Part shown: one piece after another, positions 33,358 through 44,120 of the stretch
How the letters are laid out: every line of letters begins with the position of its first letter
Numbering within the stretch: position 1 is the first letter of the stretch
Virus record (IMG/VR): IMGVR_UViG_3300037508_000925
Location: 1-45,068 of that record
From: a virus
Length of the DNA stretch: 45,068 nucleotides
Strand: one strand, 5' to 3'
Program-made: the position numbers and the translations under genes
The notes under the pieces: model-generated
Database searches by the model: none
Seen by the model: only the letters and a program-made list of their open reading frames with translations
What the model was told of the DNA's origin: nothing

Positions 33358-33921
33358 ATGAAAATTATTGATTTTATAGGCATTTGGGAAAATGCTTTGT
33401 TTAAAGAAGATTGTGAAAAATTAATACAGCATATTGAAAATACTCAAAAACAAAAATCATTTAATAAATCCACATTAATAAGAAAAGATCTTCATTGTAG
33501 TTTATCTCATGATGAAGATCTTGCTATTAAAATAAATGAAAAACTAAATTATTGTTTAGATGAATATACAAAAGAATACAGTGCTCTATTAGAATCTGAT
33601 TATTCTAATCCAGAAATTAAGTTACAAAAAACAGAACCTTGTGGTGGATATCATGCTTGGCACTGTGAAAATGTAGGAATTAATTTTTGTTTTAGAGGTT
33701 TAGTTTGGATGATTTATCTCAATGATGTTCCTGGAGACGAAGGAGAGACTGAATTTTTATATCAAAAACTTAGAGTTAAACCAGAGCAAGGTAAATTATT
33801 AATTTGGCCCGCAGGATTTACACATACTCATAGAGGAAATCCTGTATATACTCAAAACAAATATATTGCAACAGGTTGGTTTTATTATGCTCCTGAAGGT
33901 GGTATTATAATTCAATCATAA
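33358..33921 (+). CDS. 2OG-Fe(II) dioxygenase
   Basis: A 187-aa protein of the prolyl-hydroxylase-like class, which uses iron, oxygen and 2-oxoglutarate to hydroxylate a substrate. Motifs: GGYHAWHCE with His102 and Glu104 (an HxE in place of HxD), WMIYLNDVPGDEGETEFLYQ in the core, LLIWPAGFTHTHRGNP with the distal His156 or His158, and Lys168 in NKYIATGWF as the likely 2OG anchor. It follows the last tip module after 19 bases and precedes a strong terminator. Substrate unknown; a virion protein or host protein is possible. Confidence 0.8.
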   Translation: MKIIDFIGIWENALFKEDCEKLIQHIENTQKQKSFNKSTLIRKDLHCSLSHDEDLAIKINEKLNYCLDEYTKEYSALLESDYSNPEIKLQKTEPCGGYHAWHCENVGINFCFRGLVWMIYLNDVPGDEGETEFLYQKLRVKPEQGKLLIWPAGFTHTHRGNPVYTQNKYIATGWFYYAPEGGIIIQS

Positions 33922-34347: not shown

Positions 34348-34376
34348 TTGACACCTATATTAAAGTGTGATAGGAT
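34348..34376 (+). promoter_or_regulatory. Rightward sigma70-type promoter
   Basis: TTGACA (34348-34353), a 17-base spacer and TAGGAT (34371-34376). Predicted start about 34383, with the ATG of the first operon gene at 34399. It drives the operon that contains the nuclease and the Mom-like gene. Confidence 0.75.
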
Positions 34377-34388
34377 GGAAATGTTCAC

Positions 34389-34417
34389 ATCATAACATAT
34401 GGACGGATTTGTGTCAA
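34389..34417 (-). promoter_or_regulatory. Leftward sigma70-type promoter facing the rightward one
   Basis: On the reverse strand, TTGACA (34412-34417), a 17-base spacer and TATGAT (34389-34394, five of six). Predicted start about 34382, next to the start of the rightward promoter. The two polymerase footprints must overlap, so only one can be occupied at a time. The -35 lies within the coding region of the 71-aa gene. Confidence 0.75.
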
Positions 34418-34614
34418 CTACAGGCGAATGGGCAGCTGTTCCGTTCGGAAAAGAATATATGGTTATCTATAAAGGTAGACAAGATTCTGTTCATGCTACC
34501 CTAGAAAAAGCCAAAGAATACATTAAGAAAGCCAAATCAAAAACTGGCACAAAGGGACGCCGTACTGTCAAACGTGCTTCTAAAATAAAAGGACTAGAGC
34601 AATTTATGGAATGA
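34399..34614 (+). CDS. Small basic protein (71 aa), unknown
   Basis: MDGFVSTTGEWAAVPFGKEY, a small beta part (MVIYKGRQDSVHATLEKAKEYI), then a strongly basic tail (KKAKSKTGTKGRRTVKRASK). The tail suggests nucleic-acid binding. First gene of the nuclease operon. No Shine-Dalgarno is obvious; the leader is only about 16 bases. Confidence 0.6.
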   Translation: MDGFVSTTGEWAAVPFGKEYMVIYKGRQDSVHATLEKAKEYIKKAKSKTGTKGRRTVKRASKIKGLEQFME

Positions 34615-34618
34615 TGCA

Positions 34619-34792
34619 ATGGATTTTACTGAACAGGAATGCGATTATTTACTTGACGCATTAAAAGGTTACATTAGAACCTGTAGAGAATGGAATTGTG
34701 GAGACGAATTTGACGTAGATACAAAACCATATTCTAAACTGGTTAAAAAAATTGCTGATTATTCCCTCAAAACATTTTATGAATCAAACTGA
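34619..34792 (+). CDS. Small protein (57 aa), unknown
   Basis: MDFTEQECDYLLDALKGYIR, then TCREWNCGDEFDVDTKPYSK and a helix KLVKKIADYSLKTF. Three Cys are present but not in a zinc-finger layout. It overlaps the nuclease gene by 14 bases. Function unknown. Confidence 0.6.
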   Translation: MDFTEQECDYLLDALKGYIRTCREWNCGDEFDVDTKPYSKLVKKIADYSLKTFYESN

Positions 34793-35342
34793 TGCTCTTT
34801 TAATTGAATCAATTCTTCATCCAATTAAACAAAAAACTGTGATGAAGATTTACTCTAATCTTCGTAGTGCAAATCTAAATCTTATTAAAGATGCAATCCC
34901 AGAAGTTCTTATCTGGGCAACATTTGAAAAAACATTTACTACATGTCTTGGATATGCATTGCAAGAGATAGCAGAAACGTGTGGAAACAATGTTAGAAAC
35001 ACTGACAAAAAGCAAAGAAAAGTTTTAGGAATTGATCTATCAATTAATGAAGAATGGGAGGGTCAACTAAAGGCAAATAAAAATACCCAAACAGGAACAC
35101 ACAAAAATGACTCCATTCAAAAACTTCTTCAAACAACCATTGATCATGAAACGAAAGCTTTTTTTGCTGTTGCTTTTGGTGAGTCTTTTGACTACACACG
35201 GGACAGCATCAGATACATTGGAGGTGAAGCCTTCTGGTCATGGATTGGTATTGATTACACCCAGTTACGTGATATAATTGTAAAAGTAGCAAAAGAAACA
35301 GCAGATGAAGTCAAACATGCTTATGGATATGTTTTACGGTGA
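34779..35342 (+). CDS. Putative PD-(D/E)XK restriction-type endonuclease
   Basis: A 187-aa protein starting at ATG 34779; an upstream in-frame ATG at 34752 lies deep in the previous gene. An N-terminal helical part leads to TFEKTFTTCLGYALQEIAE, like the helix that carries the first acidic residue in type II restriction enzymes. Then come GIDLSINEEWEGQLKANKNT and QTGTHKNDSIQKL. Asp86, with Gln96-x-Lys98 and nearby Glu94, fits a variant PD-(D/E)XK metal site, and NTQTG-like stretches often follow it. It overlaps the Mom-like gene by 38 bases. Likely cleaves DNA lacking the modification; the cut site is unknown. The fold is inferred from motif pattern, not proven. Confidence 0.55.
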   Translation: MNQTDALLIESILHPIKQKTVMKIYSNLRSANLNLIKDAIPEVLIWATFEKTFTTCLGYALQEIAETCGNNVRNTDKKQRKVLGIDLSINEEWEGQLKANKNTQTGTHKNDSIQKLLQTTIDHETKAFFAVAFGESFDYTRDSIRYIGGEAFWSWIGIDYTQLRDIIVKVAKETADEVKHAYGYVLR

Positions 35343-35952
35343 TGAAGATTATACATCACATAACGTAAAACAATTCGTTGTTACACCAACCACACTACAA
35401 ACTGTCAGAGATTTTATTGAAACTTGGCATTATTCTGGCAATGTAAATGGATTGCGTGTATCGAATGCATTTGCACTTCTTGCTGACAATAACATTATTG
35501 GTGGCATGATCTATGGGTCAATGGGAATGGCAAATGTGTGGAAAAAGTATGTTTCTTCTGAAGATAAGATTGTAGAACTTCGTAGACTTTGTTGCATTGA
35601 TAAAACACCAAGAAATACTGAAAGTTATTTCATTGGTAAAACATTGCGATGGATGAAGAAGAACACAGACTTTGAAGTTGTCATTTCTTATGCTGACAGC
35701 TATCATGGTCATTGTGGTACAATCTACAAAGCATCAAACTTTGAATATCATGGCATGACCGCAAAAGGACGTTTGATTGAGTATAATGGTAAAACATACC
35801 ACGATAAATCAATCAGAACTTATCATGAAAATAAGTTTGGTGTGAAGAAATTGAAACCCTTTGCACAAAATCTTAAAGATGCCTTAGAACGAGGTGATGC
35901 AAAGTACATAGATACACCAGGGAAACACATTTACATCTACAAGTTAAAATGA
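35305..35952 (+). CDS. mom: Mom-like DNA modification protein
   Basis: Up to 215 aa. The start may be 35305 or the in-frame ATGs at 35317, 35323 or 35329. Phage Mu Mom changes adenine to a carbamoylmethyl form that blocks many restriction enzymes; it has a GNAT-related fold. Matching blocks: ETWHYSGNVNGLRV (39-52), a GGMIYGSM core, VELRRLCCIDKTPRNTESYF (90-109) and SYADSYHGHCGTIYKASNF (128-146), the most typical part of the family. Overlap with the nuclease gene before it implies coupled expression. Likely protects phage DNA from that enzyme, from host restriction or from both. The chemistry on DNA is inferred from the family. Confidence 0.8.
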   Translation: MKSNMLMDMFYGDEDYTSHNVKQFVVTPTTLQTVRDFIETWHYSGNVNGLRVSNAFALLADNNIIGGMIYGSMGMANVWKKYVSSEDKIVELRRLCCIDKTPRNTESYFIGKTLRWMKKNTDFEVVISYADSYHGHCGTIYKASNFEYHGMTAKGRLIEYNGKTYHDKSIRTYHENKFGVKKLKPFAQNLKDALERGDAKYIDTPGKHIYIYKLK

Positions 35953-36113
35953 CTGATTCAATTTCCAAACGTACTGATGCAATTGATCTTATGATTCAAG
36001 ATCTTCTTACTCGCCATTTTGACATTCGCAACAGTGCTAAGAAACTTGGTTGTGAGAAAGAATTAGATCAACTCAAAGAACAACTATTAACCTATTTGCA
36101 TGAGTTACGGTAA
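35949..36113 (+). CDS. Small helical protein (54 aa), unknown
   Basis: ATGA overlap with the Mom-like gene. Reads MTDSISKRTDAIDLMIQDLL, then RHFDIRNSAKKLGCEKELDQ and a Leu-rich helix. The second half looks like a coiled coil. Its stop (TAATG) overlaps the next gene. No family recognised; tight linkage to the Mom-like gene makes a part in the same process possible. Confidence 0.6.
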   Translation: MTDSISKRTDAIDLMIQDLLTRHFDIRNSAKKLGCEKELDQLKEQLLTYLHELR

Positions 36114-36349
36114 TGGAAATTTATTACTACACATTATTCACATTATTTGCAGTTATCTGCATAATGATGGTCATTGATCCTAATGTTGGAGTTTATATTG
36201 ATCTATTGGCAAAATTCGTTAAATCCAGATTCACACGAGCATATATGATGGTTTGGTTACATCCAAAAAACCCTATTTTTAAGTATAAAGTGTGGAGACG
36301 TTCTATGAAAATGGCAGAAGAATTAAGAAGGGAATATGATAACAAATGA
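36113..36349 (+). CDS. Small membrane protein (78 aa)
   Basis: One clear membrane span at about residues 3-22 (IYYYTLFTLFAVICIMMVID), a second weaker apolar stretch around 24-36, then a basic tail (WRRSMKMAEELRREYDNK). Probably in the host inner or thylakoid membrane with the tail in the cytoplasm. Function unknown. Its end overlaps the next gene by 14 bases. Confidence 0.6.
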   Translation: MEIYYYTLFTLFAVICIMMVIDPNVGVYIDLLAKFVKSRFTRAYMMVWLHPKNPIFKYKVWRRSMKMAEELRREYDNK

Positions 36350-36890
36350 CTATCTTGATTACATGTTTAAGATCCCAATCGTACATCTGACAGCACGAAA
36401 CTGGGATCTTAAAAAGTCTATTTTGTTGGACATGATGAATAAAACTCAAATTGAATTATCTGAAGAAGATGTTCAATCTGATTATCATACACAACAAGAT
36501 AACAATGAAAGTGGTAAACATAATACAGAGATAGAACATTTATTTAAAGAAGAAATAAATTTATTTTGCAATCAACTCAATTTTATTGAATATCGTGTTG
36601 TAATGTCATGGTTTGAAACTGCATCACAGGGAAATTATCATGGGATTCATAATCATGGGTTGGTAGGATATAGTGCTGTGTGTTTTATTGATTATGATAA
36701 AGAAGAACACACAGCAACCCAATTTGTTTCACCCTTTAATAATTTTCTTACAGGACATGCCTTACATTATTCTCCACAAGTTGACGAAGGATCGTTAATA
36801 TTTTTCCCAGCAACTATTCTTCACCATACTGAACCAAACAAATCAACAAAAGAAAGAAAAATATTATCTTTTAATATCAATGTTAAATGA
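36336..36890 (+). CDS. 2OG-Fe(II) oxygenase-like protein (TIGR02466/PF13759 type)
   Basis: A 184-aa protein. Motifs: NYHGIHNHGLVGYSAVCFID with His105-x-His107, TQFVSPFNN, then DEGSLIFFPATILHHTEPN with His163/His164 as distal iron ligand and Arg174 for 2-oxoglutarate. This layout (H-x-H, F-x-x-P, FP-x-x-L-x-H, R) is that of the putative 2OG-Fe(II) oxygenase family common in T4-like cyanophages. Start at ATG 36336 behind AGAAGGGAA. It is one of two iron enzymes in tandem. Substrate unknown. Confidence 0.7.
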   Translation: MITNDYLDYMFKIPIVHLTARNWDLKKSILLDMMNKTQIELSEEDVQSDYHTQQDNNESGKHNTEIEHLFKEEINLFCNQLNFIEYRVVMSWFETASQGNYHGIHNHGLVGYSAVCFIDYDKEEHTATQFVSPFNNFLTGHALHYSPQVDEGSLIFFPATILHHTEPNKSTKERKILSFNINVK

Positions 36891-37344
36891 TATTCACAAA
36901 CACCAGTTTTTGGGTAAGATAGAGTTTCCCACACTTACATGGGATGAGGTTATCTTTAATTTCAATAAGAATGTAATTGAAGATGCTGACTATAAAATCA
37001 TGAATAACTTTGGGTTTGTGACACATCAAACAAGACATAATAAAAAGGTGTGTGCAGTCGGTGAAGAACTACAGAAACTATTTCCAACGAATAACATATC
37101 TGCACATCTTTATGTAAGTTTTCTAGAAATTAGCGAAACGTTTGGTAGACATAATGATTATCAACATGTATTCTTTTGGCAGTGTATTGGTATCACACAA
37201 TGGACTGTATGGGATGATAAAGAATATACATACAATTTGATGCCTGGGGAATTATTATACATTCCTGTAGGAATAGATCATGATACCAAACCAATCACTC
37301 CTAGAGCTGGAGTATCTTATGGCATTGAGCTTGACAATGATTGA
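36880..37344 (+). CDS. Cupin/JmjC-like iron oxygenase homolog
   Basis: A 154-aa protein overlapping the previous gene by 11 bases. Motifs: FGRHNDYQHVFFWQCIG with His91-x-Asp93, WTVWDDKEYTYNLMPGELLY as cupin strands, and IPVGIDHDTKP with His134, then Arg142. These are the expected iron ligands of a JmjC/cupin-4 hydroxylase, though the protein is short. It may act on the same target as its neighbour. The promoter for the next operon lies in its last codons. Confidence 0.65.
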   Translation: MLNDIHKHQFLGKIEFPTLTWDEVIFNFNKNVIEDADYKIMNNFGFVTHQTRHNKKVCAVGEELQKLFPTNNISAHLYVSFLEISETFGRHNDYQHVFFWQCIGITQWTVWDDKEYTYNLMPGELLYIPVGIDHDTKPITPRAGVSYGIELDND

Positions 37345-42211: not shown

Positions 42212-42238
42212 GGGGATGGCAGGCTGCTGGTCATCCCC
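42212..42238 (+). other. GC hairpin before a possible -10
   Basis: GGGGATG (42212-42218) and CATCCCC (42232-42238) form a perfect stem with a 13-base loop, directly followed by TATATT. It lies between the 65-aa gene and the gene at 42288 and may end one transcript or shape the start of the next. Confidence 0.55.
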
Positions 42239-42287
42239 TATATTGATCTCATGAGGCACAGAGCCTCACCACTTCGCTTTTCCAACC

Positions 42288-42758
42288 ATGGGCACTCGCT
42301 CTCGCATCGGCATCGAACTTCCTGATCACAGCGTTGTTTCCGTCTACTGCCACTGGGATGGTTATCCCGAGTTCAACGGCAAAAAACTGGTTCAACACTA
42401 CCAAAACCGTGAAGATGTGCAAGAATTGATTGATGGCGGCAGTATGTCATCTCTTCGCACTCGTACTTCATGGAGCAGTGGTGCTTGTCTTCGTGATGAA
42501 GCTGGTGAGCTTATCACTGATGATGAAGGTTTTATCATGTCCGAAAATGATCGTGATCCTCAACCGCAGTATTATAGTGAGCGTGGTGAAGATGAATCTC
42601 CTGTTCACACGACTTTTGATCAATTTGTCTCTGACAACTGTGGTGAGGAATATGCTTACATGTATGATCTGAATGGTAACTGGAAAGCATTCAAGCTTGC
42701 TGGCTACGACAATAAGATTGTTGAACGGGTTGACATCCCTGGCTATGTGACTGTATAA
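42288..42758 (+). CDS. Conserved-type phage protein (GTRSRIGI family), 156 aa
   Basis: MGTRSRIGIELPDHSVVSVY, then CHWDGYPEFNGKKLVQHYQN and LIDGGSMSSL. The block SRIGI...SVYCHWDGYPE...HY...LI-GG is one I recall in many phage and some bacterial proteins of unknown function. The C-terminal half is acidic (DRDPQPQYYSERGEDES). The leader has TCCAACC before the ATG, no Shine-Dalgarno, and a small GAGGC...GCCTC hairpin. The promoter of the next gene lies in its last codons. Confidence 0.65.
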   Translation: MGTRSRIGIELPDHSVVSVYCHWDGYPEFNGKKLVQHYQNREDVQELIDGGSMSSLRTRTSWSSGACLRDEAGELITDDEGFIMSENDRDPQPQYYSERGEDESPVHTTFDQFVSDNCGEEYAYMYDLNGNWKAFKLAGYDNKIVERVDIPGYVTV

Positions 42759-42759
42759 T
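42730..42759 (+). promoter_or_regulatory. Consensus sigma70 promoter with operator-like palindrome
   Basis: TTGACA (42730-42735), an 18-base spacer and TATAAT (42754-42759): both boxes are perfect. TGTGAC (42746-42751) and GTCACA (42760-42765) flank the -10 as exact inverted arms. A repressor bound there would block the polymerase. Faces the gene at 42823. Confidence 0.85.
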
Positions 42760-42822
42760 GTCACAAGGAACGGCAGCGCCTCAAAGACTCCATTTGTTGT
42801 TTTACATTCGTTGTTTTTTACC

Positions 42823-43056
42823 ATGCGTACCTTTAACTTCACTGGTTCTTCTGCTATCGTTGACAACGGTATCACTGTGACCAACAACCGTGCTAACATT
42901 GTCTTCAAGGGCAATCGTGAGTATGTCTACGAAATCACCGATCCTGCCTCCTTCATGGTGCAGCTGGAAGGTGAAATCGCTGACCAAAATGGTTCTGTTG
43001 GTCGTTTTGTTAACACCGCTCTGAAAAACGAACTGCTGAAGCCCATTACTGTGTGA
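42823..43056 (+). CDS. Small beta-rich protein (77 aa), perhaps KTSC-like
   Basis: ATG 42823 is preferred over a TTG at 42811. MRTFNFTGSSAIVDNGITVT, ANIVFKGNREYVYEITDPAS, then VGRFVNTALKNELLKPI. The order V-x-F-x-G...YVYE...S-x-G-x-FVN-x-x-L recalls the KTSC domain (tyrosine/valine strand pair, then GxFxNxxI), but the match is loose. Driven by the perfect promoter upstream. Confidence 0.55.
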   Translation: MRTFNFTGSSAIVDNGITVTNNRANIVFKGNREYVYEITDPASFMVQLEGEIADQNGSVGRFVNTALKNELLKPITV

Positions 43057-43063
43057 TTTGATT

Positions 43064-43081
43064 GGGGGGATTATTCCCCCC
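43064..43081 (+). terminator. G6/C6 hairpin after the 77-aa gene
   Basis: GGGGGGA-TTAT-TCCCCCC is a perfect 7-bp stem eight bases after the stop, followed by TTCTCATACCTTT. The weak T-rich tail fits a poor terminator. It is also one of a set of similar hairpins in this block. Confidence 0.55.
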
Positions 43082-43106
43082 TTCTCATACCTTTGCCGTA
43101 AGTTCC

Positions 43107-43247
43107 ATGAACGCCAAACAAATCAAAGCGGAAATGTCCCGCATTCAAACTCTCCTCAAGCACAATCTTTCTCTTGAAGAACGTGAAATGCTTGAAGAAG
43201 ATTATGAAGATCTCCGTCAAGAACTTATCGAAGTTACCTGCTATTGA
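43107..43247 (+). CDS. Coiled-coil peptide (46 aa)
   Basis: ATG 43107; the frame continues upstream through the hairpin but that part is unlikely to be coding. MNAKQIKAEMSRIQTLLKHN, then LSLEEREMLEEDYEDLRQEL. One helix-turn-helix hairpin, acidic in its second half. Function unknown. Confidence 0.55.
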   Translation: MNAKQIKAEMSRIQTLLKHNLSLEEREMLEEDYEDLRQELIEVTCY

Positions 43248-43249
43248 AA

Positions 43250-43414
43250 ATGACTCACTTCACTGATCGTCCTAACATCGAAGAAATGACTGAAATGATG
43301 TACCGTGATGAACTTGAAGAACTGCTGGAATCTGACGATTCACAGTGGGATCTGAACATGGATGATGAATCAAATGATTTTGAATCATATCTTGGGTCAA
43401 CCTACGACTACTGA
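43250..43414 (+). CDS. Very acidic small protein (54 aa)
   Basis: MTHFTDRPNIEEMTEMMYRD, ELEELLESDDSQWDLNMDDE, SNDFESYLGSTYDY. More than a quarter of the residues are Asp or Glu and only two are Arg. Such composition occurs in DNA-mimic proteins of phages that block host DNA-binding enzymes, but no family is recognised. Directly followed by the palindrome at 43417. Confidence 0.6.
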   Translation: MTHFTDRPNIEEMTEMMYRDELEELLESDDSQWDLNMDDESNDFESYLGSTYDY

Positions 43415-43416
43415 TG

Positions 43417-43436
43417 TGACACTTATATAACTGTCC
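43417..43436. repeat. 20-bp palindromic element, copy 2
   Basis: TGACACTTATATAACTGTCC, three bases after a stop codon and three bases before a GC hairpin. Same layout as copy 1 at 42187-42206, with TGACACTT and AACTGTC fully kept and the middle changed. The AT-rich centre could itself serve as a -10. Confidence 0.55.
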
Positions 43437-43439
43437 ACT

Positions 43440-43466
43440 GACCCCTAGGCAGCCTGTTTAGGGGTC
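43440..43466 (+). terminator. 8-bp GC hairpin after the palindrome
   Basis: GACCCCTA (43440-43447) and TAGGGGTC (43459-43466) with an 11-base loop, followed by TTATAGTATCTT. Probably ends the previous small operon, and TATAGT right after it may be a -10 for the gene at 43498, though I see no matching -35. Confidence 0.6.
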
Positions 43467-43497
43467 TTATAGTATCTTCAGTTGATTCCCACCAACC

Positions 43498-43905
43498 ATG
43501 CAAAACACCACCCTCACAGCTGAAAAGATCGCAGATTACGCTGTAATGCTGTGTGACGCACTGTACATGAACCTGAAAGATTATCAGATTCGTGCTCACC
43601 AGCGTTCGATTCAAAATGAGATCAACATGGATTATCATCAACAAAAGATTGATGAAATCAAGAACCATGGTGTTGATGTGGAGTATTATATTGTGAGTGG
43701 TAAAAAGTATTTTAAGATTGTGATGCGTGATTCTGGCGGTCAGAAGTCGGCTCATGCTTTTGTGGACAAGACCACTGGAGAGGTCTACAAGCCCGCCAGC
43801 TGGCGAGCACCTGCCAAGCATGTACGCTACAACCTGCTCAACCAGAAGCAGCGTGAATGGCTGTATGAGAACGCTGACTGGTCTGGAGGCTATCTTTACA
43901 TGTAA
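43498..43905 (+). CDS. Conserved-type phage protein (135 aa), unknown
   Basis: MQNTTLTAEKIADYAVMLCD, a helical N-terminal half, then EYYIVSGKKYFKIVMRDSGG and SAHAFVDKTTGEVYKPASWR, APAKHVRYNLL, ending ENADWSGGYLYM. The block YFKIV...SAHAFVDK-x-TG-VYKPASW...DW-GGYLY is one I have seen in many phages without known function. Its leader carries ACCAACC-ATG and no Shine-Dalgarno. The gene ends two bases before a perfect promoter. Confidence 0.7.
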   Translation: MQNTTLTAEKIADYAVMLCDALYMNLKDYQIRAHQRSIQNEINMDYHQQKIDEIKNHGVDVEYYIVSGKKYFKIVMRDSGGQKSAHAFVDKTTGEVYKPASWRAPAKHVRYNLLNQKQREWLYENADWSGGYLYM

Positions 43906-43907
43906 GC

Positions 43908-43936
43908 TTGACAGGGGGCTTCCAGCCCCCTATAAT
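43908..43936 (+). promoter_or_regulatory. Perfect sigma70 promoter with a hairpin as spacer
   Basis: TTGACA (43908-43913) and TATAAT (43931-43936) are both perfect, 17 bases apart. The whole spacer is an inverted repeat: GGGGGCT (43914-43920), TCC, AGCCCCC (43924-43930). It can end the gene that stops at 43905 as an RNA hairpin and still act as the spacer DNA for the next gene. Confidence 0.88.
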
Positions 43937-43961
43937 GACGTTGTTCACCACTGAACCAACC

Positions 43962-44120
43962 ATGATTGCCGACACCACCACCGATGCCCAGCTGCGCCAC
44001 ACAATCATCAAAAGTGTGGAACAGATGGATCTTCGTCTGTTGCAACGCATTGCTTATGAATGTCGTTGTGAAGAAATGGGCATTCGCCCTGATGGTTGGA
44101 AACTCTATCCTGAAGAATGA
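43962..44120 (+). CDS. Small helical protein (52 aa), unknown
   Basis: ATG 43962 with ACCAACC before it. MIADTTTDAQLRHTIIKSVE, then QMDLRLLQRIAYECRCEEMG and IRPDGWKLYPEE. Two helices and a short tail. Its TGATG junction overlaps the next gene. Confidence 0.6.
   Translation: MIADTTTDAQLRHTIIKSVEQMDLRLLQRIAYECRCEEMGIRPDGWKLYPEE

Follow-up and report, generated by a model that had tools for sequence, protein, structure and literature searches.

Few restriction-modification systems use a mark other than methylation, and for Mom-type modification our literature searches gave only a prediction: Mom proteins of jumbo phages with a fused REase-fold domain were predicted to act as restriction-modification units (PMC7824862, section 3.4.7). 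Pairs of a restriction-modification cutter and its protector are also encoded by giant viruses such as melbournevirus and the chloroviruses (PMC7253447). In melbournevirus the cutter is transcribed before the modifier, and since host DNA is not degraded, co-infecting rivals were suggested as the target (PMC7253447). In phage Mu, mom is preceded by com, which overlaps it by 80 nt and codes for a small translational regulator.

The window analysed here is a stretch of viral DNA of 45,068 nucleotides (positions 1 to 45,068 of IMG/VR record IMGVR_UViG_3300037508_000925). It contains an operon with overlapping genes for a putative nuclease (nuclease A) and a Mom-family protein. Related loci are referred to below by L numbers. 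The features of the locus are as follows:

34348-34376, plus strand: sigma-70-type (early-type) promoter TTGACA-17-TAGGAT ahead of the operon (consensus match and alignment of relatives)
34389-34417, minus strand: divergent promoter-like site TTGACA-17-TATGAT, for an opposite-strand 68-aa gene (consensus match only)
34399-34614, plus strand: 71-aa basic protein, conserved ahead of the pair, but only within the window's clade
34619-34792, plus strand: 57-aa ORF, non-conserved, found in L001-L003 and L005 only
34779-35342, plus strand: nuclease A, 187 aa, predicted EcoO109I-like restriction-endonuclease fold, with invariant D86, Q96, K98 and G149..F152-W153
35305-35342, plus strand: 38-nt overlap of the nuclease end and the Mom start, kept in both nuclease families (A and B, see below) with few exceptions
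35305-35952, plus strand: Mom-family DNA modification protein, 215 aa, matching Pfam PF25680 and phrog_1384
35949-36113, plus strand: 54-aa ORF after Mom, non-conserved, found in L001, L002 and L005 only

The locus resembles the jumbo-phage units in joining a Mom-family modifier to a restriction-fold nuclease, and the same protective logic is proposed for both. Unlike those units, which are typically one fused protein, it consists of two overlapping genes in T4-like cyanophages; other differences are the EcoO109I-type fold, exchange of the nuclease and signs of mobility. With com-mom of Mu it shares the Mom family with its conserved HYS, PRNxES and SxAD blocks and an upstream gene overlapping mom, whereas Mu has no nuclease at that place. 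Melbournevirus is the closest functional parallel, although the protector of the giant-virus systems is an adenine methyltransferase (PMC7253447). The pair itself can be found in Synechococcus phage DSL-LC03, whose record (OR003938) labels the two products 'type II restriction endonuclease' and 'Mom-like'; Mom is unmentioned in the main text of the DSL-LC03 paper. Searches of the literature available without subscription found no description of the cassette. The concept is already predicted (PMC7824862) and the pair already annotated (DSL-LC03); what appears to be new is the EcoO109I fold and a cutter slot that allows exchange.

An earlier note on this DNA had given the same coordinates for the nuclease and Mom reading frames and the same 38-nt overlap, and had listed the three small reading frames (71 and 57 aa upstream, 54 aa downstream); all of these are present. 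Its suggestion that the small genes may be helpers does not hold, as the 57-aa and 54-aa frames are missing from most relatives. The 71-aa gene was not found in the L137-L153 contexts, which are the neighbourhoods of more distant nuclease-Mom pairs; since it stands next to the pair in the window's clade only, it is not part of the cassette. Position 34348, with which the earlier note began the locus, is the first base of the sigma-70-like promoter. The -35 box of this promoter is identical in six aligned relatives and the -10 box is variable. Early expression of the nuclease-Mom operon would be consistent with such a conserved promoter. The cassette flanks include two 2OG-Fe(II) oxygenase genes and one JmjC-like gene (33358-33921, 36336-36890 and 36880-37344 of the window).

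The modification gene linked to the cutter codes for Mom, a member of the GNAT acyltransferase superfamily, and not for a DNA methyltransferase. Its identity, proposed earlier from the blocks VELRRLC, PRNTES and SYADSYHGHCGTIYKASNF, is confirmed: the blocks are present, and the matches to PF25680 (E=3.2e-36, 125.3 bits against a cut-off of 27.1) and phrog_1384 (E=8.8e-59) are unambiguous. Residues H42-Y43-S44, E91, R94, P102, E106-S107, S128, A130-D131 and N145-F146 are invariant, Mom of Mu included. Purifying selection acts on both genes: NG86 dN/dS is about 0.03-0.11 for Mom and about 0.06-0.22 for nuclease A, values that are rough because dS is near saturation.

The earlier note had also taken the 187-aa product for a putative nuclease on account of Asp86, Gln96 and Lys98. 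These residues (D86, Q96-L97-K98) are invariant in 13 homologues with identity down to 47%, as are G84, T103, G149 and F152-W153; N102 is replaced by T in two of the 13. The more distant homologues were collected using a cyanophage Mom as bait, which led to the divergent L025 upstream of another Mom gene and then to six more. These distant sequences were decisive for structure prediction: the model built on seven close homologues was unusable (pLDDT 44), and the addition of L025 and L138-L143 raised pLDDT to 85.6 (pTM 0.83, 13 homologues). A Foldseek search of the PDB with this model gave EcoO109I (1WTD; E=1.7e-4, probability 1.00, TM-score 0.65 by query length) as the only match below 0.001. 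Independently, profile-profile alignment (hhalign) of the nuclease A family with 19 PF14511 (EcoO109I) proteins from bacterial genomes had a probability of 92.9% and a score of 53.8, the maximum of 100 column shuffles being 22.0. The alignment is colinear at the invariant positions GxD, K, N and G..FW. Since the predicted fold and the profiles agree, nuclease A can be regarded as an EcoO109I-like nuclease, and its fold as that of a restriction endonuclease. The direct match to PF14511 (17.7 bits) is under the Pfam gathering cut-off of 22.5, which makes it a distant relative of EcoO109I rather than a filed member of the family.

EcoO109I itself is partnered by a methyltransferase. Nuclease A shares its fold and key invariant positions and differs in a shorter N-terminal part and in having Mom as partner. 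The Gln at a catalytic place where Asp or Glu would be expected counts against a restriction enzyme; it is no objection, however, as Q, S or A occupies the place of Gln96 in PF14511 proteins. PDB sequence searches with nuclease A alone or as a profile gave chance matches only. No homologues were detected in the genome_contigs and plasmids collections, nor, in a search run without a positive control, in 297 genomes of one phylum. A degenerate catalytic-motif scan recovered only the nuclease A family in viral contigs and mostly chance matches in bacteria, and a PF14511-derived alignment found no EcoO109I-type relatives in viral contigs.

Nuclease A is followed by an overlapping Mom gene in all 18 contigs with downstream sequence, so that the linkage proposed in the earlier note is kept in related genomes. 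The 18 comprise ten IMG/VR contigs and phage DSL-LC03, which belong to the window's clade, and seven more distant contigs; two further contigs end inside the nuclease gene and are not counted. A second nuclease-like family, nuclease B, has the invariant motif D94...E103-Q-K105. It was first seen upstream of Mom in L026, later in ten more contigs, and is Mom-linked in 11 out of 11. In total, Mom is linked to nuclease A or B in 29 of 29 contigs. Almost all A and B loci have an overlap of 38 nt (L144-L147 and L149 do so if counting begins at an ATG located three bases before the tabulated start); L005 and L006 read one codon further, and L150-L152 differ. Nuclease and Mom are separate overlapping genes in every locus, never a fusion. 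A relation of nuclease B to EcoO109I is not supported, its score of 16.5 being under the best shuffle (23.5); against nuclease A its profile score is weak (28.6 vs 22.2 for the shuffle). As it has no recognised fold, its putative identity as a nuclease is based on motif and position.

The gp62-regA-hsp20 locus permits a direct comparison, since it carries nuclease A in L142 and nuclease B in L026 and L146. The flanks and Mom of L142 match those of L026 and L146 at 71-75% nucleotide identity, and the nuclease reading frame forms a break: blastn matches cover the left flank and end at the nuclease or before it; they begin again about 10-15 nt ahead of the nuclease stop codon and then cover Mom and the right flank. 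In the cassette-free loci of DSL-LC03 (which carries a nuclease A-Mom pair in its genome) and Sf-CH8, hsp20 directly follows regA. Matches of L142 to these two break off past regA and return beyond Mom, which places the two breaks just outside the cassette on either side. From these break positions it follows that the cassette was inserted as a unit and the cutter was exchanged separately. The Mom tree mixes the A and B labels: L142 lies inside a B group at 95/81 support, and several A/B exchanges are needed. These comparisons give the locus the look of a mobile cassette in which Mom is the constant part and the cutter occupies a slot open to exchange, which is what one would expect of a restriction-modification unit.

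We consider the nuclease-Mom pair to be probably a phage-borne, self-marking restriction cassette with Mom as the protector. Mom would attach a bulky group of acyl type to adenines in the DNA of its own phage, as expected from its family, and the EcoO109I-fold nuclease would cut DNA lacking this mark, whether of a co-infecting phage or of the host; the mark would block cleavage. The 38-nt overlap may couple translation, so that cutter and protector are made together. The cassette would move as a unit among cyanophages, its cutter being replaceable by a different nuclease-like gene while Mom stays. The earlier reading of the pair as restriction-modification with a non-methyl mark is strengthened in this respect by the restriction fold and the Mom linkage, and loses the small genes as helpers. 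On balance we also favour the fuller version, a mobile restriction-modification cassette with a Mom-type bulky adenine mark, in which constant Mom and cutters of at least two families serve T4-like cyanophages against rivals or the host.

Several observations count against a restriction cassette. The cutter gene lies ahead of the protector gene. The EcoO109I site RGGNCCY occurs in carrier phages at about the expected frequency (18 found vs 14.9 expected); they do not avoid it and would need protection there. If this specificity were kept, some sites would offer Mom no adenine to block, except at N.

The genomic contexts of the pair vary (psbA/psbD, regA-hsp20, lysozyme and others) and other phages lack it at the same site. 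This is what could be expected if the nuclease were a homing-type or selfish endonuclease cutting cassette-free genomes in mixed infections, with Mom as cargo or an anti-restriction function. Directly next to Mom, L015 has an HNH gene and L036/L037 have a zinc-finger gene that looks like HNH but lacks Pfam confirmation; both point the same way. We find this unlikely, because the predicted fold matches a type II restriction enzyme, relatives 70-75% alike occupy different sites and Mom is present in every one of the 29 contigs. Two nuclease families with the same overlap and the same partner fit a cutter and its protector better than independent homing.

In ten other annotated phages, as in the eight strongest loci of two bacterial phyla, Mom genes mostly have no nuclease next to them, and no restriction enzyme was seen among the neighbours of the bacterial and prophage Mom genes in these eight loci. 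The pairing is therefore frequent in one cyanophage group and not general to Mom. The S-SSM7 group of cyanophages has Mom but neither nuclease A nor nuclease B, which also counts against a restriction cassette. Such stand-alone genes agree with Mom guarding by itself against host restriction, the nuclease being an unrelated enzyme of host DNA degradation or recombination that shares the operon; several nucleases act on host DNA in T4-type phages. Against this, a merely shared operon would hardly account for linkage in all 29 contigs, for a near-constant overlap with both families or for exchange of the nuclease while Mom is kept in place, and we regard it as quite improbable. That the nuclease is modification-dependent (type IV-like) and attacks marked DNA of other phages, Mom providing a compatible self mark, is very improbable: virus-encoded enzymes of this kind exist (HHPV4I, PMC10101028), but the nuclease A model shows one compact domain, without an extra reader domain of the SRA or winged-helix kind, and its match is a conventional type II enzyme.

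If the self-marking restriction cassette is indeed a restriction-modification system, it would point to a way in which cyanophages might distinguish their own DNA from foreign DNA. It consists of two small genes, and the natural pairs with differing cutters and closely similar Mom proteins allow one to ask whether one Mom protects against two cutters.

Other genes accompany Mom elsewhere. A ParB-like gene lies directly upstream of Mom and overlaps it in Microbacterium phages (L165, 1278-2430), and the same arrangement was seen by eye in two Bacillota genomes (L180, 879-2097; L181, 980-2100); the ParB-like gene is the second partner to recur beside Mom, here in hosts that are unrelated. In Pantoea phage Phynn (L159, 1064-2337) a DNA methyltransferase gene is located just upstream of Mom, and in L027-L029 a gene for a radical SAM/SPASM protein takes this position.

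In 165 kb of DNA from nuclease-A phages (the window and the DSL-LC03 segments L168, L013, L169 and L155), the tetranucleotide CCGG was found once where 65 were expected; it is scarce in controls too (14 found vs 43 expected). Finally, positions 42233-43965 of the window are GC-richer (about 45% vs 35%), 83% identical to DSL-LC03 and contain long ORFs on both strands.
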